A stretch of DNA of 35,649 bases from positions 1 to 35,649 of the IMG/VR virus record IMGVR_UViG_3300035670_000729; one strand, written 5' to 3'. Shown here one piece after another: positions 1 to 35,649 of this stretch (position 1 is its first letter; the number at the start of each line of letters is the position of its first letter). This DNA comes from a virus. Made by a program: the position numbers and the translations under genes. The notes beneath the pieces are model-generated. The model saw nothing but the letters and a program-made list of their open reading frames with translations. It made no database searches and had not been told where the DNA came from.

Positions 1-2
1 TG

Positions 3-149
3 CATCGGCGAGCGGCAAAGGAGGCGGGACTGCCGACGATGGGAGATGACGGAAGGCACCTGGACGACTTCATGGCGGTTCACTGGGCGCGAGTTGTTGA
101 AGAAGGCCAGCCTGATGAAAAGCAACAAGTGGCCCGAGGAGGAGTTTGA
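3..149 (+). CDS. 3' end of a truncated small ORF at the window edge
   Basis: An open frame enters from the left edge and stops at TGA 147-149. The readable part includes MGDDGRHLDDFMAVHWARVV and then an acidic, Gln-rich tail, which looks protein-like. An internal ATG lies at 39. It overlaps the next ORF by 35 bases, in keeping with the packed small rightward genes that follow. I recognise no family. It could also be a chance open frame, since only about 48 codons are visible and the true start lies outside the window. Confidence 0.35.
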   Translation, partial: HRRAAKEAGLPTMGDDGRHLDDFMAVHWARVVEEGQPDEKQQVARGGV

Positions 150-462
150 CTACGAACACGCAATGACCACCCCACACGAAACTCCGCTGTGGCACCTGAA
201 CGAGACGACCCGCAAGATGCGCGAAGGACTGGAGCAAAGCTCATTCGCTGCACCGGATAGTTCAGCGACGTGCTGCTCATGCGCCTACTGGGAACACGGC
301 CAAACTCCGAGACTGATTGCGGTCAGCGGATACTGTCCAGTCTTCGACAAGAAAACGTGGGCATACCACGGCGAGAAATGCACGGCCCACAGCGTGACTG
401 GTTCACCGAACGAGAAAGCTCAGCGATCACTGCCAGACCGTGACGCCGGGCGGAAAGAATGA
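115..462 (+). CDS. Small Cys/His-rich hypothetical protein
   Basis: A 115-residue product from ATG 115, preceded by AGAAGG about 7 bases upstream; an in-frame ATG at 46 would add 23 residues that look less protein-like. The C-terminal half has CCSCAYWEHG, then a Cys in SGYCPVF and a late GEKCTAH, a spacing that suggests a small metal-binding module (inference). No family is recognised. The stop (460-462) is one base before the next start at 464, so the two are probably co-translated. Its function is unknown. Confidence 0.5.
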   Translation: MKSNKWPEEEFDYEHAMTTPHETPLWHLNETTRKMREGLEQSSFAAPDSSATCCSCAYWEHGQTPRLIAVSGYCPVFDKKTWAYHGEKCTAHSVTGSPNEKAQRSLPDRDAGRKE

Positions 463-463
463 C

Positions 464-718
464 ATGGCAATACCTGTGACGATGAAAGCAGAAAAGCGGG
501 GCAGTGATTCGCTGGAGCGCATTGTTCGGCGTCTGAGGCGGATTGCCGTGCCGAGAATAAGACGATGGTGGTGCAAGCTGGCGCATCGCAAGCACCACAT
601 GCCAGCGTATTATTTGCCGCGTCTGTGGCGCTGCGACAAATGCTGCCGAGGTTGGTTTAAGCAAATCAAGCGAGTGGAAACTTGCTCGCATTGTGGTGGA
701 AGTGGATACGAACCATGA
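464..718 (+). CDS. Small basic zinc-ribbon protein
   Basis: An 84-residue product from ATG 464, chosen over an upstream in-frame ATG (440) because GGAAAGA at 452-458 gives a ribosome site and the previous gene ends at 462. The N-terminal half is strongly basic (RIVRRLRRIAVPRIRRWW). The C-terminal half has two CxxC pairs, CDKC and CSHC, followed by GGSGYEP, which is a zinc ribbon like those in many small phage proteins. A nucleic-acid-binding role is plausible from charge and fold but is inference. An attC-like hairpin starts two bases after the stop codon. Confidence 0.6.
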   Translation: MAIPVTMKAEKRGSDSLERIVRRLRRIAVPRIRRWWCKLAHRKHHMPAYYLPRLWRCDKCCRGWFKQIKRVETCSHCGGSGYEP

Positions 719-719
719 C

Positions 720-839
720 GCCTAACGCTGCGGGTGAGCTAACAGCCACCCGCGCCTCAGTTTCGTTCGTTTGTTCAGTTTGCATATTCAGTTTTTTGGT
801 TGTTCGGCGGGTGGCTGTAGCTCGACCTGCTTGTTAGCC
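720..839 (+). repeat. attC-like imperfect inverted repeat
   Basis: The left arm starts GCCTAAC (720-726), then 5 bases, then GGGTGAGCT and AACAGCCACCCGC (ending 753). The right arm (807-839) is GCGGGTGGCTGT, AGCTCGACC, 5 bases, GTTAGCC. Read against each other the arms pair in the order 7-bp outer box, 5-nt unpaired spacer, 8-9 bp inner box, one extra base on the left arm, then a 12-bp perfect stem and a 53-nt T-rich loop. That order (R box, spacer, L box, extrahelical base) is the architecture of integron attC sites. The right box misses the GTTRRRY consensus at one position. No integrase is visible, so cassette origin is an inference. Confidence 0.4.
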
Positions 840-842
840 GTT

Positions 843-1094
843 TTGCGCTGCCTCAGACTTCTCCAAGAGTGTCCTCCAACGGCGCGCCAAATCATCGAGG
901 CTGGTGATAGGGCAATCGACGCTGCTGGACTGAACCCGTGGGCAATGAATGAAGGTCTGGCTACCGGAGATGAGCGGCATACGCCTTGGATGCTGGAGGA
1001 CTGCATCCAAGACATCGCTGCTGCTATATCTTCGGCTAACGGCGGAGGTGAGCCACGCCGGACCAATGGCTCACGAACACCAGAAACCTTATGA
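843..1094 (+). CDS. Small hypothetical protein, start uncertain and possibly broken
   Basis: The frame encodes ARQIIEAGDRAIDAAGLNPW followed by MNEGLATGDERHTPW and a Cys-containing helix. This looks like a real small phage protein of a type often found in early regions. The protein-like sequence runs upstream of the only ATG (948) with no good start: a TTG at 843 lies just beyond the attC-like repeat and has no ribosome site. Either the gene lost its start when the repeat arrived, or translation starts at 948 and makes 48 residues. Its TGA (1092-1094) overlaps the next ATG at 1091, which supports co-translation. An 8-bp perfect inverted repeat, GTGAGCCA/TGGCTCAC, spans 1048-1074. Confidence 0.35.
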   Translation: MRCLRLLQECPPTARQIIEAGDRAIDAAGLNPWAMNEGLATGDERHTPWMLEDCIQDIAAAISSANGGGEPRRTNGSRTPETL

Positions 1095-1333
1095 GAAAAA
1101 TCAAAGACGCAATCCGGCGTTGGCTCGACCGACTGGTTGGGAGACGCGGCGAATATCCAAACACGTTCGAGGGCGGAATGAGCAAGGCTGCCGACATAGC
1201 CGACCTCATGGCGTGCAGTACTGATGACCAGCACCGCCGCGAAATGCAACTGTGGGTCGGCAGGGAAATACGCTCAAGCAGGGACTGGGGCAAGCGTTCT
1301 CCCAACAGTGTTGATAAACGCAACCCACAATGA
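1091..1333 (+). CDS. Small hypothetical protein A with repeated tail
   Basis: An 80-residue product starting at ATG 1091, overlapping the stop of the frame before it (ATGA). It has a basic N-terminus (MRKIKDAIRRWLDRLVGRRG) and a helical middle part. The last ten codons, PNSVDKRNPQ, lie in a 33-base sequence that recurs at the end of the next ORF. No domain is recognised. Its stop overlaps the start of the next ORF in another ATGA, so the small ORFs here form a translationally coupled series. Confidence 0.42.
   Translation: MRKIKDAIRRWLDRLVGRRGEYPNTFEGGMSKAADIADLMACSTDDQHRREMQLWVGREIRSSRDWGKRSPNSVDKRNPQ
1301..1333 (+). repeat. 33-base direct repeat, copy 1
   Basis: This segment begins CCCAACAGTGTTGATAA and ends exactly at the stop codon of the ORF at 1091-1333. 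It matches the segment at 1504-1536 at 26 of 33 positions (counted by eye), and both copies end on a stop codon. Confidence 0.55.
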
Positions 1334-1536
1334 CAACTGACCCAAGATTCAGCAATCACGCCGAATGGTGCAAATCCCTGCTCATCGGCGGAGGCCCGTG
1401 CAACTGTGGGTTCACGGAAAGAAAAATCCATGTTCATGTGGCGCACGAGCAGCCACAGAGCAGAGCGCCAGAAGCCGTCGGCGGTAGCGTGTCCGCCTTT
1501 AGCCCCAACAGTGCTGATAACCCCAACCCGAAGTAA
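1330..1536 (+). CDS. Small hypothetical protein B, His/Cys-containing, repeated tail
   Basis: A 68-residue product whose ATG (1330) overlaps the preceding TGA. The first half has HAEWCKSLLIGGGPCNCGF, a His/Cys cluster (H, C, CxC) that could bind a metal ion; this is inference from spacing only. The C-terminus, PNSADNPNPK, is the second copy of the repeated tail seen in the preceding ORF, although the N-terminal parts are unrelated. No family is recognised. Confidence 0.42.
   Translation: MTTDPRFSNHAEWCKSLLIGGGPCNCGFTERKIHVHVAHEQPQSRAPEAVGGSVSAFSPNSADNPNPK
1504..1536 (+). repeat. 33-base direct repeat, copy 2
   Basis: This segment begins CCCAACAGTGCTGATAA, ends on the stop codon of the ORF at 1330-1536, and matches copy 1 (1301-1333) at 26 of 33 positions. 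The two host ORFs are otherwise dissimilar, so the repeat looks like a shared 3' cassette end rather than a gene duplication. Confidence 0.55.
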
Positions 1537-1557
1537 CCACTCCACACAAGAACAAAC

Positions 1558-2430
1558 ATGAAACAAATAATACGTCTAACAACACTAGCTGCTGATAAAG
1601 CTTGCCGAGTGTTAAAAGGCCAAACATCCACGCACATGGACTGGCACGTTGCCAGGAAGGAGTTTCGACAGGCGTTCCTGACGCCTCTCAAGCACCTGCT
1701 ACTGTACGGCGATGCGAAGTTCCCTGAGGCCATTGCCATCGAGGTCGGCACGCACTGCAACCGCGCTTGCCCCTACTGCACCCAGTCAGTCGACAAGCAG
1801 CCCACGGGGTGGATGAGCGACCGTGTGCTCGACGCCGTGTCGTTCCGGCTGCGGCAACTTTACTTCACTGGGACGATCTTCTACTCTTGGAGGAATGAGC
1901 CGTTGTTGCGCAAGGATTTGGAGGAGGTCGTTGCCCGGTTCAAGCAGGACGCCCCGGCAGCTCGACACATGATCTACACGAACGGGGACGCCCTTACCGA
2001 CGACAGGATGCGCAAGCTGATCGTCGCCGGGATGAGCGAGTTCGTCGTCACGCGGCATCCGCCGTTCAGCGACGAGTGGGACAGGCGGATAGCGTTCCTA
2101 AAGCAGATGTACCCGAGACACGTCTCGCTCCGCGGGTCGATTGTTGACAGCCCGTGGTTGATGAACTACGCGGGCACCGTGAACATCCCCAACAAGAAAA
2201 GCATGGGCTGGTGCAACGTTCCCAACGTCCACTTCCAGATACTCGCCAACGGGGACGTGCCGCTCTGTTGCGCGCTGCCGCGGCGCGACGTGCTCGTGAT
2301 GGGCAACGTGCTGGAGGAGTCCATCCTCGCCATCTGGGGCAAACCGCAGTTCAAGGAGCTGCGGCAGCAGGCCGCAAGCGGGAACCCGTCCGAGCCAATC
2401 TGCAGGAGGTGCCTGTGTCTCGAGGGCTGA
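1558..2430 (+). CDS. Radical SAM enzyme with SPASM-like C-terminal domain
   Basis: A 290-residue protein. The radical SAM cluster motif is CNRACPYC (Cys67, Cys71, Cys74), which in this family binds the [4Fe-4S] cluster that cleaves S-adenosylmethionine to start radical chemistry. It is followed by strand/helix patterning typical of the partial TIM barrel. The C-terminus carries a second set of Cys: Cys219, the adjacent pair Cys237/Cys238, then Cys282 and Cys285 (CRRC) plus Cys287, with an 'LAIWGKPQFKELR' segment. This is the usual pattern of SPASM auxiliary-cluster domains. SPASM enzymes often modify peptides, but some act on sugars or small molecules, so the substrate is not determined. The gene is GC-rich compared with the polymerase gene downstream. 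Its end overlaps the small membrane-protein gene at 2415. Confidence 0.9.
   Translation: MKQIIRLTTLAADKACRVLKGQTSTHMDWHVARKEFRQAFLTPLKHLLLYGDAKFPEAIAIEVGTHCNRACPYCTQSVDKQPTGWMSDRVLDAVSFRLRQLYFTGTIFYSWRNEPLLRKDLEEVVARFKQDAPAARHMIYTNGDALTDDRMRKLIVAGMSEFVVTRHPPFSDEWDRRIAFLKQMYPRHVSLRGSIVDSPWLMNYAGTVNIPNKKSMGWCNVPNVHFQILANGDVPLCCALPRRDVLVMGNVLEESILAIWGKPQFKELRQQAASGNPSEPICRRCLCLEG
2404..2409 (+). promoter_or_regulatory. Shine-Dalgarno site fixing a GTG start
   Basis: AGGAGG lies inside the 3' end of the radical SAM gene, five bases before GTG 2415. It decides the start of the overlapping membrane-protein gene, whose frame otherwise stays open far upstream through non-protein-like sequence. Confidence 0.75.
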
Positions 2431-2711
2431 CAGAGCTAGCCATACTCGCCGCCGTCAGCGCAGCCGTGGCGCTGTGCTTCGACTACACCTCCAAGCTCGG
2501 CATGTGGGGGGAGTTGGCGATCCTGTGGGGCGCAGCCGCCGCGGTGTGGGTCTTGTGCTGGATCGACCACAGGCACCCGGTCACAGAAGACCCGAACCCC
2601 ACCAGCCCCGCACGGTTCTTGCTCTACTTCGTGGCGACGATCGGCTGTATCGTGCTCGTCGCCAACGTCGCCAAGTGGATCGGCAAACTGATCGGGTCGG
2701 ACTACATATGA
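2415..2711 (+). CDS. Small multi-pass membrane protein
   Basis: A 98-residue protein starting at GTG 2415 behind a perfect AGGAGG. Three hydrophobic stretches are visible: ELAILAAVSAAVALCF, ELAILWGAAAAVWVLCW and FLLYFVATIGCIVLVANVA. The first two are separated by a short loop and the third by a charged, Pro-rich loop. It is expected in the inner membrane. It overlaps the radical SAM gene by 16 bases, so the two are probably made together; whether it is a partner, exporter or unrelated superinfection-type protein cannot be told. Its stop is followed at once by further tiny ORFs. Confidence 0.68.
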   Translation: MSRGLTELAILAAVSAAVALCFDYTSKLGMWGELAILWGAAAAVWVLCWIDHRHPVTEDPNPTSPARFLLYFVATIGCIVLVANVAKWIGKLIGSDYI

Positions 2712-2736
2712 GCGAACTTACCAGAAAGGGAGCCAC

Positions 2737-2817
2737 ATGATAGACTCAATTCAAACATGGCACATTGCGCTACTCGTCGCTTTCGTGCTGATAACAGCAA
2801 TCGGAGCAGAAGCATGA
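2737..2817 (+). CDS. 26-residue single-pass membrane peptide
   Basis: ATG 2737 is preceded by AAAGGGAG four bases upstream. The product is MIDSIQTWHIALLVAFVLIT followed by AIGAEA, a single hydrophobic segment with a short polar start. Its last codons overlap the next start (ATGAGC at 2814), and that start again has GGAG at 2803-2806. Length and overlap fit small phage membrane peptides, but with so few codons coding status rests on the ribosome sites. A 10-codon ORF at 2708-2740 just before it is probably only a leader or chance frame. Confidence 0.42.
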   Translation: MIDSIQTWHIALLVAFVLITAIGAEA

Positions 2818-3086
2818 GCAAACATGACTGGGTGATAAGGTGGCTCGCACTGGCCAGTTGGCTCGACGACCTCGTGGCGCTGTTCCGCCCATGCAGCCGG
2901 GCTGCGTGGTACGTGGAAACCCCCGACGGCTGGGTCGGTCCGTGTAAGACAATGGAAGATGCTATAAGTCTTGGTGCAACAATGCATCCTGGAGATACAT
3001 TTACTCTAAAAACAAACCAACAACCATCAAAAACTTGGACTGTTAGCTACACCAAAACCTATGCAAATTCTCCATCGCATACTTGA
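2814..3086 (+). CDS. Small hypothetical protein spanning a composition break
   Basis: A 90-residue product starting at ATG 2814 with GGAG seven bases upstream. The N-terminal part, WVIRWLALASWLDDLVALF, is amphipathic to hydrophobic. The rest has AWYVETPDGWVGPCKTMEDA and then a Thr/Lys-rich tail. The DNA changes composition within the gene: bases 2821-2880 are 62% G+C while 3001-3060 are 35%. That suggests a recombination joint inside or near this ORF. No family is recognised. The end overlaps the next ORF by 26 bases. Confidence 0.48.
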   Translation: MSKHDWVIRWLALASWLDDLVALFRPCSRAAWYVETPDGWVGPCKTMEDAISLGATMHPGDTFTLKTNQQPSKTWTVSYTKTYANSPSHT

Positions 3087-3219
3087 CGTTGGCTCAACTG
3101 TTGTATTAACCGTTCTCACCTACATCGGCTGCCTCTGGCTGCTAGGTATACTCACCGGTCTCACTTGTTTCTTTCTCGTGAAAGGCTTCCGTTTTGGCCG
3201 TTACTTATTTGGTATGTAA
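3061..3219 (+). CDS. 52-residue membrane peptide
   Basis: This short ORF reads MQILHRILDVGSTVVLTVLT and continues into a long hydrophobic run (YIGCLWLLGILTGLTCFFLV), ending KGFRFGRYLFGM. It has one or two membrane spans with positive charge at the C-terminal end. It overlaps the preceding ORF and has no clear Shine-Dalgarno sequence. A degenerate version of the dispersed palindrome (TCAACTGTTGTA, 3094-3105) lies about 35 bases into it. A membrane or lysis-related role is only a guess. Confidence 0.45.
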   Translation: MQILHRILDVGSTVVLTVLTYIGCLWLLGILTGLTCFFLVKGFRFGRYLFGM

Positions 3220-3250
3220 GCCACCTCACTTTCATTAACACCTTCCTTCT

Positions 3251-3436
3251 ATGTCTAAAAAATACCAAGTTTCAGTGTTCACTGACAACGATCTTTATCT
3301 TGTCTTAATAGCAGACAACTTAATCATTCGTGTTACCAAATTCATGGGCGACAGTCAGATTGGACGTGAGGTAAGTTTTAACTCATTGCCGGTTGATGTG
3401 CAAGAGAAAATTATCGAGATTGTTACTGCACAATGA
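3251..3436 (+). CDS. 61-residue hypothetical protein
   Basis: A small soluble-looking protein beginning MSKKYQVSVFTDNDLYLVLI with alternating hydrophobic strands and a short C-terminal helix (DVQEKIIEIVTAQ). Its stop overlaps the polymerase start in ATGA (3433-3436), a sign of translational coupling, so it may be an accessory of replication (inference from position only). No Shine-Dalgarno motif is evident before ATG 3251, as for several genes here. Confidence 0.5.
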   Translation: MSKKYQVSVFTDNDLYLVLIADNLIIRVTKFMGDSQIGREVSFNSLPVDVQEKIIEIVTAQ

Positions 3437-6123
3437 AAACAAAACCCATTGCTATGTATCTGCAGGAGTCGAACCCGCCGAGTATGCTTGACGCACCAGC
3501 GGGTTGCATCATCACCTCCGAGCCGCCTAAAGTTCCAAACAAGTTTCCAACGATTCGTGCACTAAACCGCATCGCCATAATTGGTGAAGCACCTGGAGCA
3601 GACGAAGTCTTGCACAAAGAACCCTTCGTAGGCACATCTGGGCGTATGCTCACCGCGTTGTTGAGGAAAGCCGGCATCTCACGTGAGGCTTGCTTTATCG
3701 GCAACGTGTGCCAGGTTCGTCCACCAAACAACGACATATCAGCCTTCTCTTTCGACGGTAGAGAAATCCAAGAAGGTCTAACTCAGCTAGGCGAAGACTT
3801 AAATCGCATCAACCCTAACATTTGCCTGCTCCTGGGTAAAACTGCGTTGCGTGCTGCGAACGGCGAGCAAGCTATTTCTAACTGGCGTGGCAGTCTCTTC
3901 GAGGGGACAAAGCCACCTTTTGTTGGACGTAAATGCATCGCTTCTTACCATCCCGCCGCTTGTCTACGTCAGTACGACTGGACCCCTCTTTTAATGTTTG
4001 ATGTGAAGAAAGCCATCCAGAATGCAGCGTCTCCTCAACTGCACCTTCCGGTGCGCAATCTGCAAATCGACCTAACGCCGGCGGCTATCATAGACCGTCT
4101 CAATGCCTTGCGCTGTTGCAGACAACCGGTCGCTCTTGACATCGAGGGAGGTGTTCGCTCTATGTCTTGTATCTCCTTCGCTCCTGCCGCAACGGATGCC
4201 TTCATCGTACCCTTTACTAAATTCACCGGCGAGTCAATCTTCACCGAAGAAGACGAGCTTGCTGTCTGGCGTGCGCTTGCCGCCCTTCTCGAAGACCCGG
4301 AGGTGCCAAAGGTATTGCAAAACTCCATGTACGATCGCTTTGTTCTCCAATACAGCTATGGCATCTGCGTTCGTGGTGTGGTCGATGACACCATGTTAAA
4401 GCACTGGGAGCTTTATTGCGAACTAGAAAAATCCCTCGGCTTTCAAGCGTCTCTTTACACCAACGAGCCATTTTACAAATCTGATCGCAAGACCGACGAC
4501 TTGGCTACCTTCTGGCGGTATTGCTGTAAGGATAGCGCCGTTACTCACGAGATAAACGAAAAGCTGAACGGCTTTTTGTCCGACTCACAACGAAAGCATT
4601 ACATCTTCAACGTCGGTTTGCTTAATCCATTGTTGTATATGGAACTAACTGGCATACTTTATGATGCCAAACTCGCTGCAGAACGCAAGCGACAAGTTGA
4701 GCAGACTACATACAAGCTTCAAGCCGAACTTGACACCATTGCAGGAGTAGGTCTCTCGCCAGATACGCCCAAACCCGAACTCTTGCAAAGGGTGCGTGAT
4801 GTTATGTGCTATAAGCGCGATGCTAGCACTCCGAAGAAACAATTCGAAGAATCGTACTACATTCTCCTCAACTGGCTCAGTGGTCCAACTCCTATCACCG
4901 TTGAACAAATCGGCTACCTTAACACAGCCCTTGATTGCGGTATGAACATCAAATCCCCACGTTTCAAAGACTATTTATATAAGCAGTTGAAACTCCCACC
5001 GCAGTATGCAAAAGATCCACTCACGAAGCAAAAGCATCTCACCGCCAACTATGAAGCCTTGCTAAAGTTGTTCAAGCAGTCTGGAAACCGTGCGGTTGAA
5101 TGTGCCTTAGCTATTAGTGAACTACGAACACGCTCTCAGATGTTGGCAATTAGTGCAGATAAGGACGGTCGTGTGCGTTGCGGCTACAACATAGTCGGCA
5201 CAGAAACTGGACGCCTCACTTGCTATACCTCTCCAACGGGAAGTGGTTACAACTTGCAAACTATACCCGCCGACAACCCACTCCGACCAGAAGGGCATCC
5301 CCTGCGCAAAGGTATGCGAGACCTATTCATCGCCGACAGCGATTGCTACATGTTCCAATGCGACCTATCGGCAGCCGACGGCTGGACAGTTGCTGCACAT
5401 CTTGCTCGTCTAGGCGATCCCACCTTGCTTGACGACTACCGTAGCAACATCAAACCGGCAAAGGTGCTTTGCTACATGCTTCGACATGGCGCAGATTCGT
5501 TACGTAACAAATCTCGTGAAGAAGTCAAACATTTGTCTAACGAAGTGAACAAAGACTCCTGGGACTATTTTGCGTGCAAGGCCGGTGTATACGGCTCCTT
5601 CTACTTGATGGGACCACGCAAACTTGCTGACTGGATCTTTATTCAGAGTGAAGGTGACATCACACTGTCTGAGAACGAAGCCCGCTCGTTACAAAACTTG
5701 TTCTTCTCTCGTTACAAAGTCTCCTTATGGCACGATCACACACGTGCACAACTTGCTCGCTCGCCGGAGTTGGTATCTGCTAGCGGACACAAGCGCCGCT
5801 TTTTTGGCAGACCTACTGAAATCCTTAGTCAAGCTCTGGCCCATGAGCCGCAATCAAACACCACCTACGCAACTAACTTAGCTGTTGCCCGATTGTGGAA
5901 TGACCCCGAAAACCGCTTAGGCAAACACCTGGTTGTAGAACCCTTGCACCAAGTGCACGATGCCTTGCTCGGTCAGTTTCCTAAAGAGCGCACTGAATGG
6001 GCTATTGCAAAAATTCGTAGCTGGTTTGCTAACGAGATAACCATTGCCGGCGTCTCCGTTACAATCCCCTTCGAAGGTTCATATGGGGAGTCTTGGGGTT
6101 CTCTGAACACAGGCTCTATCTAG
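3433..6123 (+). CDS. Fusion DNA polymerase: UDG-like + 3'-5' exonuclease + PolA
   Basis: An 896-residue replicative polymerase. Residues about 46-195 are a uracil-DNA-glycosylase-superfamily domain: GEAPGADE (51-58), FVGTSGRML (65-73), RPPNN (96-100), YHPA (172-175). It lacks the N-terminal CxxC of iron-sulfur family-4 enzymes. Residues about 230-380 are a DEDDy proofreading exonuclease: Exo I DIE (236-238), Exo II N297...D301, Exo III YCCKD (363-367). The rest is family A polymerase: GTETGRL (589-594), motif A DLSAAD (644-649), motif B around K716-Y724, motif C VHD (841-843). The two metal-binding Asp residues (644, 843) are kept. By eye the usual Glu of motif A is Asp649 and the residue after the motif C Asp is Ala844, not Glu. 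Phage SPO1 polymerase is a known precedent for the UDG-PolA fusion. Confidence 0.95.
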   Translation: MKTKPIAMYLQESNPPSMLDAPAGCIITSEPPKVPNKFPTIRALNRIAIIGEAPGADEVLHKEPFVGTSGRMLTALLRKAGISREACFIGNVCQVRPPNNDISAFSFDGREIQEGLTQLGEDLNRINPNICLLLGKTALRAANGEQAISNWRGSLFEGTKPPFVGRKCIASYHPAACLRQYDWTPLLMFDVKKAIQNAASPQLHLPVRNLQIDLTPAAIIDRLNALRCCRQPVALDIEGGVRSMSCISFAPAATDAFIVPFTKFTGESIFTEEDELAVWRALAALLEDPEVPKVLQNSMYDRFVLQYSYGICVRGVVDDTMLKHWELYCELEKSLGFQASLYTNEPFYKSDRKTDDLATFWRYCCKDSAVTHEINEKLNGFLSDSQRKHYIFNVGLLNPLLYMELTGILYDAKLAAERKRQVEQTTYKLQAELDTIAGVGLSPDTPKPELLQRVRDVMCYKRDASTPKKQFEESYYILLNWLSGPTPITVEQIGYLNTALDCGMNIKSPRFKDYLYKQLKLPPQYAKDPLTKQKHLTANYEALLKLFKQSGNRAVECALAISELRTRSQMLAISADKDGRVRCGYNIVGTETGRLTCYTSPTGSGYNLQTIPADNPLRPEGHPLRKGMRDLFIADSDCYMFQCDLSAADGWTVAAHLARLGDPTLLDDYRSNIKPAKVLCYMLRHGADSLRNKSREEVKHLSNEVNKDSWDYFACKAGVYGSFYLMGPRKLADWIFIQSEGDITLSENEARSLQNLFFSRYKVSLWHDHTRAQLARSPELVSASGHKRRFFGRPTEILSQALAHEPQSNTTYATNLAVARLWNDPENRLGKHLVVEPLHQVHDALLGQFPKERTEWAIAKIRSWFANEITIAGVSVTIPFEGSYGESWGSLNTGSI

Positions 6124-6134
6124 CCTCTCTCATA

Positions 6135-6161
6135 TGTATTGTACAACTGTTGAACAAAACC
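6135..6161. promoter_or_regulatory. Dispersed palindrome, copy 1 (intergenic)
   Basis: The core is TTGTACAACTGTTGAACAA at 6139-6157, with flanks TGTA and AACC that extend the dyad. It lies in the 48-base gap between the polymerase and the ATPase gene, ending 11 bases before ATG 6172. The consensus half-site over five copies is GGTnTTGTwCAAC with one central A/T. Proximity to a gene start suggests an operator, but the binding protein is unknown. Confidence 0.75.
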
Positions 6162-13800: not shown

Positions 13801-14542
13801 CTACAATCTCGCCGGCGGCTTGCAACGCTTGTTGCGAAGCCTTTGGCAACAACCGCTTACCAATTTGCTTCGTCGCAACACCTGCTGCACCACCAGCACC
13901 AAAAGTAGTACCAAGCAACGGCAATTGCTCTCCGATAGACTTGGTACCATACTGCATCGTTTGCCGCAGGCGCTGTGCCAAGCCAGCAGGACCGCTTTCT
14001 ACCCCAGCACCCACCTGCGCGAAGTCAGCAATACTCGGCGGGTTAGCAGCAATCTCCTCCCGGTTTGCCTCTGCCCTTTGCGTAAGCCAATTACTAAGTG
14101 ATTCCCCCAACTTGGGTGCAAGAGGCTTTATAGCCAAGTCAGTTAATAGTTTTCCTCCTCCGTAACCAATGTCTTGCAAAATATCAACACCGCGCAACGT
14201 ATCGCTTACTATCCCGCCGGGAGGTGGTCGTAAATTGCCTTCTGCGTCAAAAAATCTACCGATTATGTCTTCCTTACCTGAAGCAATAGCCGCTTGTGCG
14301 TCTTGAGACCACTGCTCCGGCGTAGGTCCCGTAAGAGGCGACAGTATCGAGCGCAATGCACCTGAAGACTGCTGCCCTGGCAAGGGAGCGCCAATACTCG
14401 AGGTAGCAGTCTGCTTCGGCGTTTCGTTCAACTGTTGAACAAGACCTACCGCAAGCTTCTGCAGAGCATCTGTTGATAGCTCTTGCGGCGACTCGACGTC
14501 GTACTCCTCGCCAGTCGGTAGAGTAATTTGATACGTAGGCAT
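7721..14542 (-). CDS. Giant polyvalent virion/ejection protein with two zincin domains
   Basis: A 2273-residue protein, the last gene of the late block. The N-terminus is short and polar, then come Gly/Ala-rich helical stretches (about 165-310) able to contact membranes, and a Pro-rich linker. Two gluzincin-like modules follow: H797-E-I-W-H801 with downstream E872 (YEFITE), and H1105-E-T-A-H1109 with E1204 (HEFTSV). Each is followed by a similar W/F-rich helix, so they look like an internal duplication. Residues about 1800-1900 (FWFHIYPQTRLNQ, then a Gly/Ala hydrophobic stretch) resemble the C-terminal region of large polyvalent phage proteins. Such proteins are injected with the DNA and may cut the cell wall or host proteins; the substrate here is unknown. 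It starts at ATG 14542 behind AAAGGGA. A copy of the dispersed palindrome lies about 105 bases into the gene. Confidence 0.85.
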   Translation of the reverse strand: MPTYQITLPTGEEYDVESPQELSTDALQKLAVGLVQQLNETPKQTATSSIGAPLPGQQSSGALRSILSPLTGPTPEQWSQDAQAAIASGKEDIIGRFFDAEGNLRPPPGGIVSDTLRGVDILQDIGYGGGKLLTDLAIKPLAPKLGESLSNWLTQRAEANREEIAANPPSIADFAQVGAGVESGPAGLAQRLRQTMQYGTKSIGEQLPLLGTTFGAGGAAGVATKQIGKRLLPKASQQALQAAGEIVGAASTGAGIEAGAMYSEVPEEKRGAAQALKTLMLSVPAGFAEAVQPVLALRRFHGAPVTPLDNFATKMFGKEFVESRVGQGATGLLESAVSEAPTEYWQTLVEQFNKLTAQGVPLADVPKYLFTEDMEKERREGAVAGFVSGGAFGGVTGVFSQERPAPPIPPAVARPSDTALMASDTLASEVQHANERLAALDAREQELTVLAEDASRPRKQRKAERQLAVLRFRKERVAAQVERLQELSRTLAASTPAWRDEKTIAPAEAVPPTGPAIAPPYPLSATEQPVVNVPGVVTPGEVERPGGGPTERGRVSFGAEAGGIPNMLQQAQPVPTQVPSQVKQIERVPGGTVRERVRYGQEMETQQRQPSLDVAQTPTQQGRFEDVPAISRKEMRQQVARGNTLVNVLTPTGAYTAFAGPANAAGARQVGRPVYDPALRQTRIEWGPLREGERIPALERTEPSRERGEFPPVGPDPFRPSRTGRTVKGDLERIASNPNDKWSHLAQETLAKADPEMLDVPIKVTPQSGGTAGFYSPERDAIEIGPRHWDDSRIIMHEIWHAGTVHKLEKFVSGLRSTYDNTHFDRGERALLEAALQNSNTDPHVKELITVYLRAKQSDTARVHYGTTHIYEFITETMTKPEFQRFLQRIPYNVKGDVSLFTKFIQAVKRIVGLHNISDTLFEAAITEIAHLYEQTRPAGFKFTQSGTTPAGVIASKSRGGERSAVQVGETKALPVAETPRGGTQVDEEVRKQGTEEKAQVAEAPVKTTGASSAAVQAARTFLGLAEGSEKSLRDVLVHVATKQREKVSANELATLRFFLVKFGKLLSTTKLSFNINDTTYYNSATNTINFGLDTNRLIVSDLLHETAHAALYKAMEDVIQGRNSEPQLVAAVKGIKRIYDEVLDGLTPTQKKAVQRMKKIVEELRGELTKEQEDKLWKEHYALTDSAFAGEGLVAYGLTDLHEFTSVMMESKKFRQFVNTLDLQPRAIDIISRWWNRILQLLGVAPGSKVDQVLRHIADIADELKKTTEGEQTRKEQTATSEKPTTFKLNTTPEDNLWFTTTLSKELEKDRPLGIAPSKDGTPKDDITGLIYDLGEFAKKSVEEGKMTLTKKYYAPPAVRAAVRAVQPLKIGDVYSEPLIDRLERLGGPVSKQVAKEARQIASRAKRYYGELTPTLDYAKELAGRAYRGGSTWIQGLEKVTDFAATSRMVGAIEGTLAAPNKAKELVAELKKANLAIGKLAEKAVEGFHARGLVQRNLTVLGYDVVRRGPGDQLWQRFAAGVAKANGKPVSDVEDILVKWKAALDRGGYDTAALNRIAQDFIRYFPKTVTHVKLHGIWHELVHSSPFHYLENAAQRTAHAVAFREVYKPDSGLLKETRQNVQRELQTPRHGREFDNLMLALQGHPLEALHGWWTAKDMPIGMVSAAADAAVPVIKSMMLSANALVNLGETLVGAPVVFLGLDNVLRQVNSVGIYELLEMAGAVNKALYDLSFNPNAPLRSIGRQLSTGIRKYTGQQYLNELQELMAAVGAHVLVERLKSKDATPYMRQRAKAVARAMGFPTVEAEAIANATDEELLKQFVTRAAPWLTGGNVGVAERSRLGASRLFNNFFWFHIYPQTRLNQMRGVVNNLIDDIRNKNFEQGKHDAILAGRLFGGLALQGAITTVIAGLLTGLSGPGQRWREAEEEPLEFLKECIAASLSGPVYLVWRTMKTPETWRRNLAWAVTPMALASELTDASMGLGKYEGLSPGERALEFARNKSPGFGFVKTLMALWGLANTEEQDFDTAVRAFYRWRRETLGSKATEMHLREDVHRPIRVAAKRVIRAVQNGGDVEKELRKVLEVTTEEELYRSLKARTILKTPEGGKLSEEQEKTIRKRLGNKLYSLLQRYDEGVGHIADYFEEQRSQEMFGKEKEQLAPRERLAVEAARPKEVRADTVMERQLNDTSRQILKRYGLSVPYTSETVSLKGQTLRLTLEEERLLNSALVASYNEMLLHFHKSDKEKTQEVLDAWLAAARQKARAKVIQRIVANRE
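14420..14446. promoter_or_regulatory. Dispersed palindrome, copy 2 (in giant gene)
   Basis: The perfect core GTTCAACTGTTGAAC lies at 14426-14440 with the right flank AAGACC matching the consensus. It is 102-116 bases inside the giant gene, where it is read as VQQLN (codon phase GTT CAA CAG). The left flank has two mismatches. Confidence 0.7.
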
Positions 14543-22440: not shown

Positions 22441-22811
22441 GGTGTTACAGTTTGTCGTTGATACTCAAACAAAGCGGCTGATGCAGTAGACGCTGCAGCT
22501 TCGACTACAGACACTGCACGTGCAACAGCATCTTCATTGGTTTTGCCTTGCCGATACGCGGCAATCATGTCCCACGCGTGAGCGTTCCAGCCAGGATAGT
22601 GCACACGTAAAAAGTCTGCTGTATGTTTAATTTCTGGTGCAGTTGCCCACAAGAGCGCGCGATTTTCTTTCTCGTAAGAGAGAAAGCTATTCACAGTGCG
22701 TGTGGAGTAATCGACAGTTGCCACGCTCATCCGTGTGAAATTTGTTGCACAACCCGCCAAGATAAAGGCGGCGAGAAGTGTTGTACAACAGTTGAACAAT
22801 ACCTTTTTCAT
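22437..22811 (-). CDS. Outer-membrane-type lipoprotein
   Basis: A 124-residue protein with a clear lipoprotein signal: positive start, hydrophobic core and lipobox ILAGC, so Cys21 should be lipidated after cleavage. Asn, not Asp, is near the new N-terminus (CATN), so sorting to the outer membrane is expected. The mature part is helical with a long Ala-rich helix (AVSVVEAAASTASAALFEYQ). It lies directly after the holin-like gene, so an outer-membrane spanin role in lysis is plausible, though it is longer than most Rz1-type proteins. A palindrome copy lies over codons 4-11. Confidence 0.65.
   Translation of the reverse strand: MKKVLFNCCTTLLAAFILAGCATNFTRMSVATVDYSTRTVNSFLSYEKENRALLWATAPEIKHTADFLRVHYPGWNAHAWDMIAAYRQGKTNEDAVARAVSVVEAAASTASAALFEYQRQTVTP
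22777..22803. promoter_or_regulatory. Dispersed palindrome, copy 3 (in lipoprotein gene)
   Basis: The core TTGTACAACAGTTGAACAA is at 22781-22799 with the right flank TACC. It lies 12-30 bases inside the lipoprotein gene, where the codons are phased TTC AAC TGT TGT ACA. That phase differs from copies 2 and 4. Confidence 0.75.
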
Positions 22812-27299: not shown

Positions 27300-27653
27300 T
27301 TACACCTTCACAGTCGTAGGTTGCACCGGCTTCGCAGGCGGCGGCGGTGGCGCAACAGCCTTCGGTTCCAAATCAGCGAACTTTTCAGGCAGCGTACCAG
27401 TCTCCCCCGGAAAGACATAATCGACAATGTGCTTGCCGTCTTTACGCGCACCGTATTTCGAAAAAAGCCGCTTACGCTCTTGCATATACGTACGCTGCTC
27501 GTTTCGAACGACAGAAACATCATGCACAGGCTTTGGCACAGCTATTGATTTATGCAAACAATCCAACAGCAATGCCTCTGCTGGAGTAATGTTCAACAGT
27601 TGTACAACACCTGAGCCGCCTGCAATACTCAACTTACAATTTCCGATTTCCAT
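27300..27653 (-). CDS. Small virion-associated hypothetical protein
   Basis: A 117-residue protein containing NITPAEALLLDCLHKSIAVP and RTYMQERKRLFSKYGARKDG, then a Pro-rich tail (APPPPPAKP). Small proteins with this 'TPAE-LLL-H' and 'R-E--RL--Y' pattern are common next to capsid genes of short-tailed phages, function unknown. The gene is the first after the strong terminator at 27675-27710, so it should have its own promoter or depend on read-through. A copy of the palindrome lies at codons about 15-23. Confidence 0.58.
   Translation of the reverse strand: MEIGNCKLSIAGGSGVVQLLNITPAEALLLDCLHKSIAVPKPVHDVSVVRNEQRTYMQERKRLFSKYGARKDGKHIVDYVFPGETGTLPEKFADLEPKAVAPPPPPAKPVQPTTVKV
27585..27611. promoter_or_regulatory. 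Dispersed palindrome, copy 4 (in 117-residue protein gene)
   Basis: Core GTTCAACAGTTGTACAAC at 27591-27608 with the flank ACC on the right. It lies 44-62 bases inside the gene, read as VVQLLN with codons GTT GTA CAA CTG. It is the first copy downstream of the mid-block terminator. Confidence 0.7.
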
Positions 27654-33934: not shown

Positions 33935-34520
33935 CGGTTAGTTGAGTAACATCGGCTTCGCTGTGCTCGACAGAGACGCTTTGATGAGGTGTGCCATAAA
34001 CACGATCCAGCAATGCTCGTGAGGCTTGAATACGCTCGGCCGGCTTCGCCGCCATGTTGTCGACTTCTTTAACGAGCCGTCTTGCCGCTGCGACAGCGCC
34101 CGCCGAGAGTGTTGACTCGATTTGATCACGGCCGGCTCGTGCTAACTCTGTAACTAGGCGGGCCCTTGCCCACGGTTGTTTGAGAATATCATTCACAGTT
34201 CCGTACTTCATACCAAGCGTGGCAGCGATTTCCCCTACGGACGCACCCGCCGCTTTCATAAAGATAATACTGCGGTGCTCCGGCTTCTCATGCAATCGGT
34301 AGCGGACAGGCTCGGTGGGATTAAACAAATCCTCGCCGGCGTCTGGCCCTCCTAGGTGCCCCACTTTCTCCAACACCCTCGCCTTTGTCTTCGCCCTTAT
34401 CAACTCCGTCGTTGATAGCTGCTCCCCCAGGTATTGTTCAACAGTTGAACAACACCCCTCCCCCTCGCTTTGCTCAAAAGCGCCTTCACACCTACTTACC
34501 TTCACCTCCTCACTCCTCAT
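33873..34520 (-). CDS. terS: Terminase small subunit
   Basis: A 215-residue protein from ATG 34520; the frame stays open to 34772 but the extra 84 codons are Pro/Gly/Arg-rich and translate a G-tract region, so I reject them. A helix-turn-helix-like part (RSIIFMKAAGASVGEIAATL, then GMKYGTVNDILKQPW) should bind the packaging site. Helices with LVTELARAGRDQIES, RLVKEVDNMAAKPAERIQAS and a C-terminal acidic segment follow. The N-terminal 30 residues (EQSEGEGCCSTVEQYLGEQL) contain a palindrome copy and may be untranslated if a later start is used. Confidence 0.72.
   Translation of the reverse strand: MRSEEVKVSRCEGAFEQSEGEGCCSTVEQYLGEQLSTTELIRAKTKARVLEKVGHLGGPDAGEDLFNPTEPVRYRLHEKPEHRSIIFMKAAGASVGEIAATLGMKYGTVNDILKQPWARARLVTELARAGRDQIESTLSAGAVAAARRLVKEVDNMAAKPAERIQASRALLDRVYGTPHQSVSVEHSEADVTQLTDDELQAIVRRGSGSSITPAS
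34430..34456. promoter_or_regulatory. Dispersed palindrome, copy 5 (best copy)
   Basis: The 19-base core TTGTTCAACAGTTGAACAA (34434-34452) is a perfect palindrome around its central A, and the flanks GGTA and CACC extend it to 27 bases with one mismatched pair. It lies 64-90 bases inside the small terminase frame, phased TCA ACT GTT GAA CAA, the third codon phase seen among the copies. Confidence 0.8.
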
Positions 34521-35292: not shown

Positions 35293-35347
<55 letters not shown>

Positions 35348-35649
35348 GCCTTGCGTCGGCGGGCAATGGGGTGCGGAATACACAGGAGCGTGGCCCTACG
35401 GCCGCACAGCAGTAGTGTAAGACTAAGGCTATGAATAAGCGGGGCTAATAGAAGCTGCGCTAATGAGAAGGTCGTCGGTCGGTCGGTCGGAAGGTTCTCT
35501 CCCTACCCCCCTATATGGCCATCCCCCCTATCCCTCTCCCCCACACACCACACCCCCTCACCACACACCCCCTTAGCTCCACACACCACACCCCCTATAT
35601 ACAAGTGAAATTTTTTTTTTTTTTTTTTTAACAAATAGAGAGATTGGTT
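35348..35649. other. Low-complexity right end
   Basis: No gene is seen. It contains a GTCG/GGTC tetranucleotide run (about 35471-35490), two CCCCCTATAT blocks (35506-35515, 35591-35600), two exact 18-base direct repeats CCACACACCACACCCCCT (35541-35558 and 35579-35596) and T19 (35611-35629). The top strand between 35500 and 35600 is strongly C/A/T-biased with few G. It could be a terminal or packaging region, or the frayed end of a contig. Confidence 0.5.

Follow-up and report, generated by a model that had tools for sequence, protein, structure and literature searches.

A tailed phage appears to carry an accessory pair of genes for a Twitch radical SAM enzyme, which would act as an oxidoreductase or epimerase on a sugar-type substrate, and for a 98-residue membrane protein serving as its partner, a reading to which we give about an even chance. 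The DNA analysed here, referred to as the window, is a whole 35,649-base IMG/VR virus record of class linear with genes for a terminase, a portal protein, a major head protein, a DNA polymerase and a primase-like DUF3987 protein; neither Rfam families (at gathering thresholds) nor tRNAs were found in it.

Motif, profile and fold concur in making the 290-residue product of the first gene (1558-2430, forward strand) very probably a member of the BtrN-like Twitch family. Its CX3CX2C motif, CNRACPYC (C67, C71 and C74, invariant in the alignment), together with a match to Pfam Radical_SAM (PF04055, E 3.6e-9, 37.5 bits against a cut-off of 29.5), places it in the radical SAM superfamily. The initial annotation had called it a radical SAM/SPASM protein, and while the reading frame, the motif and the Pfam matches, including one to SPASM (E 5.5e-14), bear out much of this name, the SPASM half of it does not hold. 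According to PMC6231123, a full SPASM domain has the seven-cysteine motif CX9-15GX4C-gap-CX2CX5CX3C-gap-C and two auxiliary clusters, whereas four auxiliary cysteines (C219, C237, C282 and C285) stand here in register with those of BtrN, in columns that are cysteine in 27 of 27 aligned rows, BtrN among them, and the protein ends at residue 290, five residues past C285. The full SPASM label was therefore rejected, and the pattern, of BtrN type and with one auxiliary cluster, makes the protein a Twitch enzyme; C238 and C287 are further C-terminal cysteines.

Searched as a single sequence against the PDB (E ≤ 0.01), the enzyme matched two BtrN chains only (E 1.3e-25), and a 19-row profile reached BtrN at E 3.3e-67, with the next family, 6y1x (NifB according to its PDB title), at 4.1e-11. 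Likewise, an AlphaFold model (mean pLDDT 77.6, with residues 196-218 and the N-terminus weak) retrieved BtrN as the best Foldseek match at E 8e-16, with SuiB next at 1.1e-7, and in VIA-align 2 BtrN superposed over 230 residues at Z 26.1 and rmsd 2.5, while the next non-BtrN entry had Z 18.2. Profile and fold thus put the enzyme in the BtrN-like family, far above other radical SAM families. Subfamily assignment by profile had been proposed earlier as a check on the idea of peptide modification, and its outcome speaks against that idea. Prokaryotic viperin (pVip) was rejected as an identity, as its match of 18 bits covers residues 64-153 only and not the whole model. Beyond BtrN, the enzyme has an N-terminal extension of ~50 residues with two predicted helices.

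A genome scan for relatives yielded 24 loci, 10 of which had their neighbours annotated. Clusters that combine 2-deoxy-scyllo-inosose synthase with a glycosyltransferase and a PIG-L deacetylase were present at four of the 24 loci and likewise on a Sodalis plasmid. In addition, an ABC-2 exporter pair adjoins the relative in L101, a GT2 protein lies nearby in L102, a GT2 protein and a polysaccharide flippase in L103, and three further genomes found by profile (L142, L143 and L144) have GT2/GT4 proteins, methyltransferases or B12-type radical SAM proteins in the vicinity. The tested neighbours in L100, L105 and L110 were a phosphofructokinase, a Phe-tRNA synthetase and a P5C reductase, none of them related to glycans apart from the phosphofructokinase. 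No relative exceeds 36 % identity, the value of the closest annotated one, the Sodalis plasmid protein; plasmid matches also comprised three proteins from Edwardsiella tarda and some remote members of the radical SAM superfamily, with Sodalis alone being close. Relatives at E ≤ 1e-40 numbered one in 288 genomes and three in 337 genomes, G280 belonging to both sets; these were drawn from the surroundings of a genome to which a Lentisphaerae locus had led and are not indicative of the phage host. As a separate observation, L105 and L107-L117 form a related group of ~320-residue Twitch-like radical SAM proteins with the motif ETHSYCNRRC, which come from genomes that include Roseomonas-like and Rhodobacter-like ones and show no clear neighbourhood.

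Searched as a single protein, the enzyme had no match in virus contigs and none among 50,697 phage records at E ≤ 1e-5; relaxing the threshold to E ≤ 1 gave six weak hits in the phage records, the best of which, MT835743, was rejected as a phage relative because it reads like a bacterial contig. The profile of alignment A1 found no viral relative among the virus contigs either. With the profiles of alignments A2 and A3, five other virus records were recovered, L121, L122 and L123 at E 3e-43 to 2e-33 (29-31 % overall identity to the enzyme) and the more distant L126 and L127, along with further partial matches. In L121, an FkbM methyltransferase gene follows the relative and a gene of the UDP-glucose/GDP-mannose dehydrogenase family lies ~4 kb upstream; in L127, a GHMP kinase gene follows, and both L126 and L127 encode a large glycosyltransferase-type protein downstream. 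PF00534 or PF00535 matched in three of these five records against one of 20 comparison records, which were hand-chosen among polymerase- and terminase-related contigs with the gene content of nine polymerase-related ones known beforehand; the count becomes two of four once L121 is removed, a 172-kb record in which the glycosyltransferase matches score poorly and lie a long way from the enzyme gene. These counts are profile-based, a phmmer comparison of neighbourhoods having been set aside as circular since its queries came from the enzyme loci, and neither family was detected in the window's own record.

In a tree of 27 rows, the enzyme, the five viral proteins and L142 form one group (support 93/94), and BtrN, L101 and the proteins of the inosose-synthase clusters form another (96/94). 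Branches are long and the joining of the window's enzyme with L122 is flagged as unsure; alignment A2 leaves out L098, L113, L116 and L118-L120 of the 24 scanned loci, and the tree additionally L111, L114 and L117 as well as the weaker or partial viral matches L124, L125 and L128-L134. Arg152 of BtrN is said, in the paper on its structure, to contact the substrate. We located this residue as the arginine of NRGG by counting along the alignment, numbered so that the first of BtrN's cluster cysteines is C16 (PMC9012708). The corresponding residue is Tyr204 in the window, Ile in L121 and L123, and Trp in L142, L126 and L127, so that the arginine is absent from six of the seven members of this group, whereas L122 and all 20 rows outside it keep it. 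Its replacement suggests a changed substrate, and Tyr204 makes 2-deoxy-scyllo-inosamine itself an unlikely substrate of the phage enzyme. We also rejected the enzyme as a BtrN orthologue, given Tyr204, its separate branch and the lack of an inosose-synthase gene nearby. W and R at 174 and 177 are shared by the enzyme and L121-L123.

The initial annotation had considered possible a SPASM enzyme that modifies a peptide, which fits poorly with a BtrN-like family that has a cyclitol-oxidising member and several relatives in glycan and inosose-synthase clusters. Judging from these gene neighbourhoods, the substrate is probably a sugar or cyclitol; a sugar would be more likely than a peptide, perhaps on the host surface, and a host surface glycan in particular is conceivable, at somewhat less than even confidence.

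The 98-residue protein (2415-2711, forward strand) matches its earlier description as an overlapping three-span membrane protein with a GTG start. Its gene overlaps that of the enzyme by 16 nt, AGGAGG at 2404-2409 lies five bases upstream of the GTG at 2415, the three predicted spans appear as three hydropathy peaks, and the codon-position GC (0.57/0.48/0.87) is coding-like. Profile searches in Pfam and NCBIfam found no family for it, and it had no match in phage records. Between about codon 23 of the enzyme and the end of the 98-codon gene, GC3 is 0.86, significantly above that of the first 22 enzyme codons (4/22). Owing to this common GC3, the two genes look like one acquisition, in our reading a recent one. 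The overlap, the common GC3 and the two predicted N-terminal helices of the enzyme argue for the 98-residue protein as a partner of the enzyme, which we regard as a fair guess falling a little short of an even chance.

Among the other explanations, the one that survives best is that of a lone acquired gene whose product acts on another small molecule (a lipid, nucleotide or cofactor), next to an unrelated phage membrane gene, e.g. for a lysis protein. We consider it unlikely: while the loss of the Arg152 equivalent, the absence of any sugar gene from the window's record and the missing family of the 98-residue protein would all agree with it, it is at odds with the glycan setting in which several relatives, viral as well as bacterial, are found, and with the way the two genes overlap and resemble each other in composition.

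Downstream of the proposed pair, three short reading frames follow on the same strand. A 26-residue hydrophobic ORF (2737-2817), preceded by the Shine-Dalgarno-like AGAAAGGGAG, and a 52-residue hydrophobic ORF (3061-3219), with no visible Shine-Dalgarno sequence and weak codon-position evidence, each encode one hydrophobic segment as had been described, but a 90-residue ORF between them (2814-3086), which has no predicted span and whose start overlaps the stop of the 26-residue ORF, had gone unmentioned. The whole module had also been called GC-rich, which is true of the enzyme from codon ~23 and of the 98-codon gene but not of the 26- and 52-residue ORFs, whose GC3 (11/26, p 2e-7, and 26/52, p 4e-10) is significantly lower than that of the enzyme stretch; both are probably separate phage genes outside the acquired pair. 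The 90-residue ORF is GC-rich in its 5' part (34/43, not different from the enzyme) and significantly poorer in its 3' part (10/47), which puts a composition break inside it. Its product gave four chance-level matches in phage records (E 6), and neither it nor the 98-residue protein had a relative in virus contigs.

Could the enzyme instead mature one of these small neighbours (26, 52, 90 or 98 residues) as a modified peptide? Small hydrophobic ORFs do adjoin the enzyme in the window, L122 and L123, the fold matches that come next after BtrN include RiPP maturases such as SuiB, CteB and SkfB, and the Pfam SPASM match points the same way; but every comparison put BtrN well ahead of all other matches, and the NCBIfam RiPP maturase models stayed well away from their cut-offs (at best 48.3 bits against 380). 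Moreover, with tblastn the 98-, 26- and 52-residue ORFs had no homologue in L092-L120 or L002-L091 (E ≤ 0.01) or in L121-L125 (E ≤ 1), a search whose scope was L002-L125. Co-occurrence of such ORFs with homologues of the enzyme had been proposed as a check, and its lack had been named beforehand as what would count against a peptide substrate; none was seen beside the relatives tested, which weakens the idea, and the GC3 of the 26- and 52-residue ORFs is unlike that of the enzyme. Maturation of a neighbouring peptide is thus quite improbable.

A small hydrophobic ORF lies beside the enzyme in three of six viral loci (L122 and L123 by script, the window by hand), compared with 20 of 538 comparison genes under the same script, a crude one that missed the window's 98-codon gene, left a 61-residue ORF of L121 just under its threshold and returned no row for L126. 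The relative in L122 is followed by a 90-residue ORF encoding a single hydrophobic segment, and this in turn by a GpA terminase gene; the one in L123 is followed by a polytopic membrane protein without known family. The small hydrophobic ORFs beside viral enzymes are not homologous to one another; their presence also in L122 and L123 makes it possible that viral enzymes need some small membrane partner, and the membrane-modifying system once put forward as an alternative is likewise conceivable, given the three loci of six.

With regard to its place in the record, the module occupies a position where polymerase-related virus records have other genes, and its earlier designation as an acquired accessory unit of the phage early region is supported: a SPASM/Twitch domain was found in none of ten virus records with related polymerases, the window being positive, and the GC3 of the enzyme gene and the 98-codon gene is unlike that of their surroundings (0.52 in the polymerase). 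A 61-residue ORF (3251-3436, forward strand), which lies directly before the polymerase, has a homologue in the related phage L002 (E 1.4e-5) and marks the right-hand border of the accessory stretch. Further upstream of the polymerase, L002, L003 and L004 have a ParB-N/DNA-methylase gene, and in L002 a gene with an AP2 domain, which also matches HNH weakly, stands between that gene and the small ORF. The place at 3061-3436, upstream of the small ORF and the polymerase, thus holds differing genes in L002-L004, such as the AP2/HNH-like gene in L002 and a 280-residue gene without Pfam match in L004, and is possibly a hotspot for accessory genes.

A chimeric assembly, in which the leftmost 2.9 kb would come from a non-phage replicon, is highly doubtful. 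GC3 does change sharply near 1623 and 2942, an attC-like fold lies at ~720-839, and window 1-3500 has no DNA match in phage records and its small proteins no named family in profile searches; but both composition breaks fall inside reading frames that run on in frame, the listed upstream genes point the same way as the polymerase, and the same enzyme group is found in five other virus records, in one of them (L122) beside a phage terminase gene. Against plasmids, window 1-3500 gave one 41-nt chance match.

Several other features of the record deserve mention. At 720-839, GCCTAAC and GTTAGCC boxes surround long inverted repeats whose strands fold at -55 and -49 kcal/mol, an element that presumably resembles attC; no integrase was seen, and an integron-type site in a phage record would be unusual. 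A 38-nt repeat (79 % identical; 1301-1338 and 1504-1541) lies where two small ORFs, one directly after the other, each reach their 3' end, and gives them the similar tails SPNSVDKRNPQ and SPNSADNPNPK. The palindrome TGTTCAACNGTTGAACA occurs in five copies with at most one mismatch (6140-6156, 14425-14441, 22782-22798, 27590-27606 and 34435-34451) and in a sixth with three, where 0.2 matches are expected at ≤ 3 mismatches; a close form of it has no mismatch-free copy in 120 compared loci, and the palindrome is possibly a phage operator. Near the right end, long T runs and simple C-rich sequence (35321-35347 and 35611-35629) reflect either assembly trouble or a true terminus.

If the accessory pair is what we propose, the enzyme, with cysteines for the radical SAM [4Fe-4S] cluster and for one auxiliary cluster, would work by analogy with BtrN: SAM would be cleaved reductively to a 5'-deoxyadenosyl radical, which would abstract hydrogen from the substrate at a carbinol carbon; the second electron would pass to the auxiliary cluster, yielding a ketone, as in a dehydrogenase, whereas return of a hydrogen atom to the substrate would make it an epimerase. 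Going by the gene neighbourhoods, the substrate would most likely be a nucleotide- or lipid-linked sugar of a host surface glycan. The 98-residue protein may hold the enzyme at the inner membrane or move the product, and the pair could serve to change the host surface during infection, for exclusion of other phages or for masking. In its most specific form, the proposal is that a branch of BtrN-like Twitch enzymes carried by phages, which has another residue in place of the substrate arginine and bears two N-terminal helices, forms a cassette of two genes with a small membrane protein and, during infection, oxidises or epimerises a lipid-linked sugar on the host surface; taken as a whole, we regard this as tentative and rather unlikely.

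The kinship with sugar-type dehydrogenases gives this phage gene a concrete and testable substrate class, and it delivers a set of viral genes linked to a possible change of host surface glycans. It also illustrates that a Pfam SPASM match alone is insufficient to call a peptide maturase. A literature search, conducted largely outside subscription journals, returned no paper on BtrN-like enzymes in phages.

Among known systems, BtrN of butirosin (aminoglycoside) biosynthesis (PDB 4M7T, 4M7S) is the obvious point of reference, as both proteins have the same Twitch fold, the four auxiliary cysteines in register and the motifs NEPLL/GEPLL and TNGD, at ~30 % identity. BtrN is a Twitch enzyme that oxidises the cyclitol 2-deoxy-scyllo-inosamine, its auxiliary cluster being the proposed electron acceptor (PMC9012708). 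Unlike BtrN, the window's enzyme has the N-terminal extension, Tyr204 in place of Arg152, W/R at 174/177 and no inosose-synthase cluster around it. The BtrN-like proteins of inosose-synthase clusters in Sodalis, Xenorhabdus and Photorhabdus also differ from it, as they keep the Arg152 equivalent, lack the extension and sit in a biosynthetic cluster. SpeY (PDB 7WZV, named after its PDB title) is likewise a Twitch radical SAM dehydrogenase, with a match much weaker than that of BtrN (Foldseek E 1.5e-7, Z 13.8). Finally, pelagimyophages, which are different phages, also have radical SAM genes, there as variable cassettes near LPS genes in a region with glycosyltransferases (PMC7029224).
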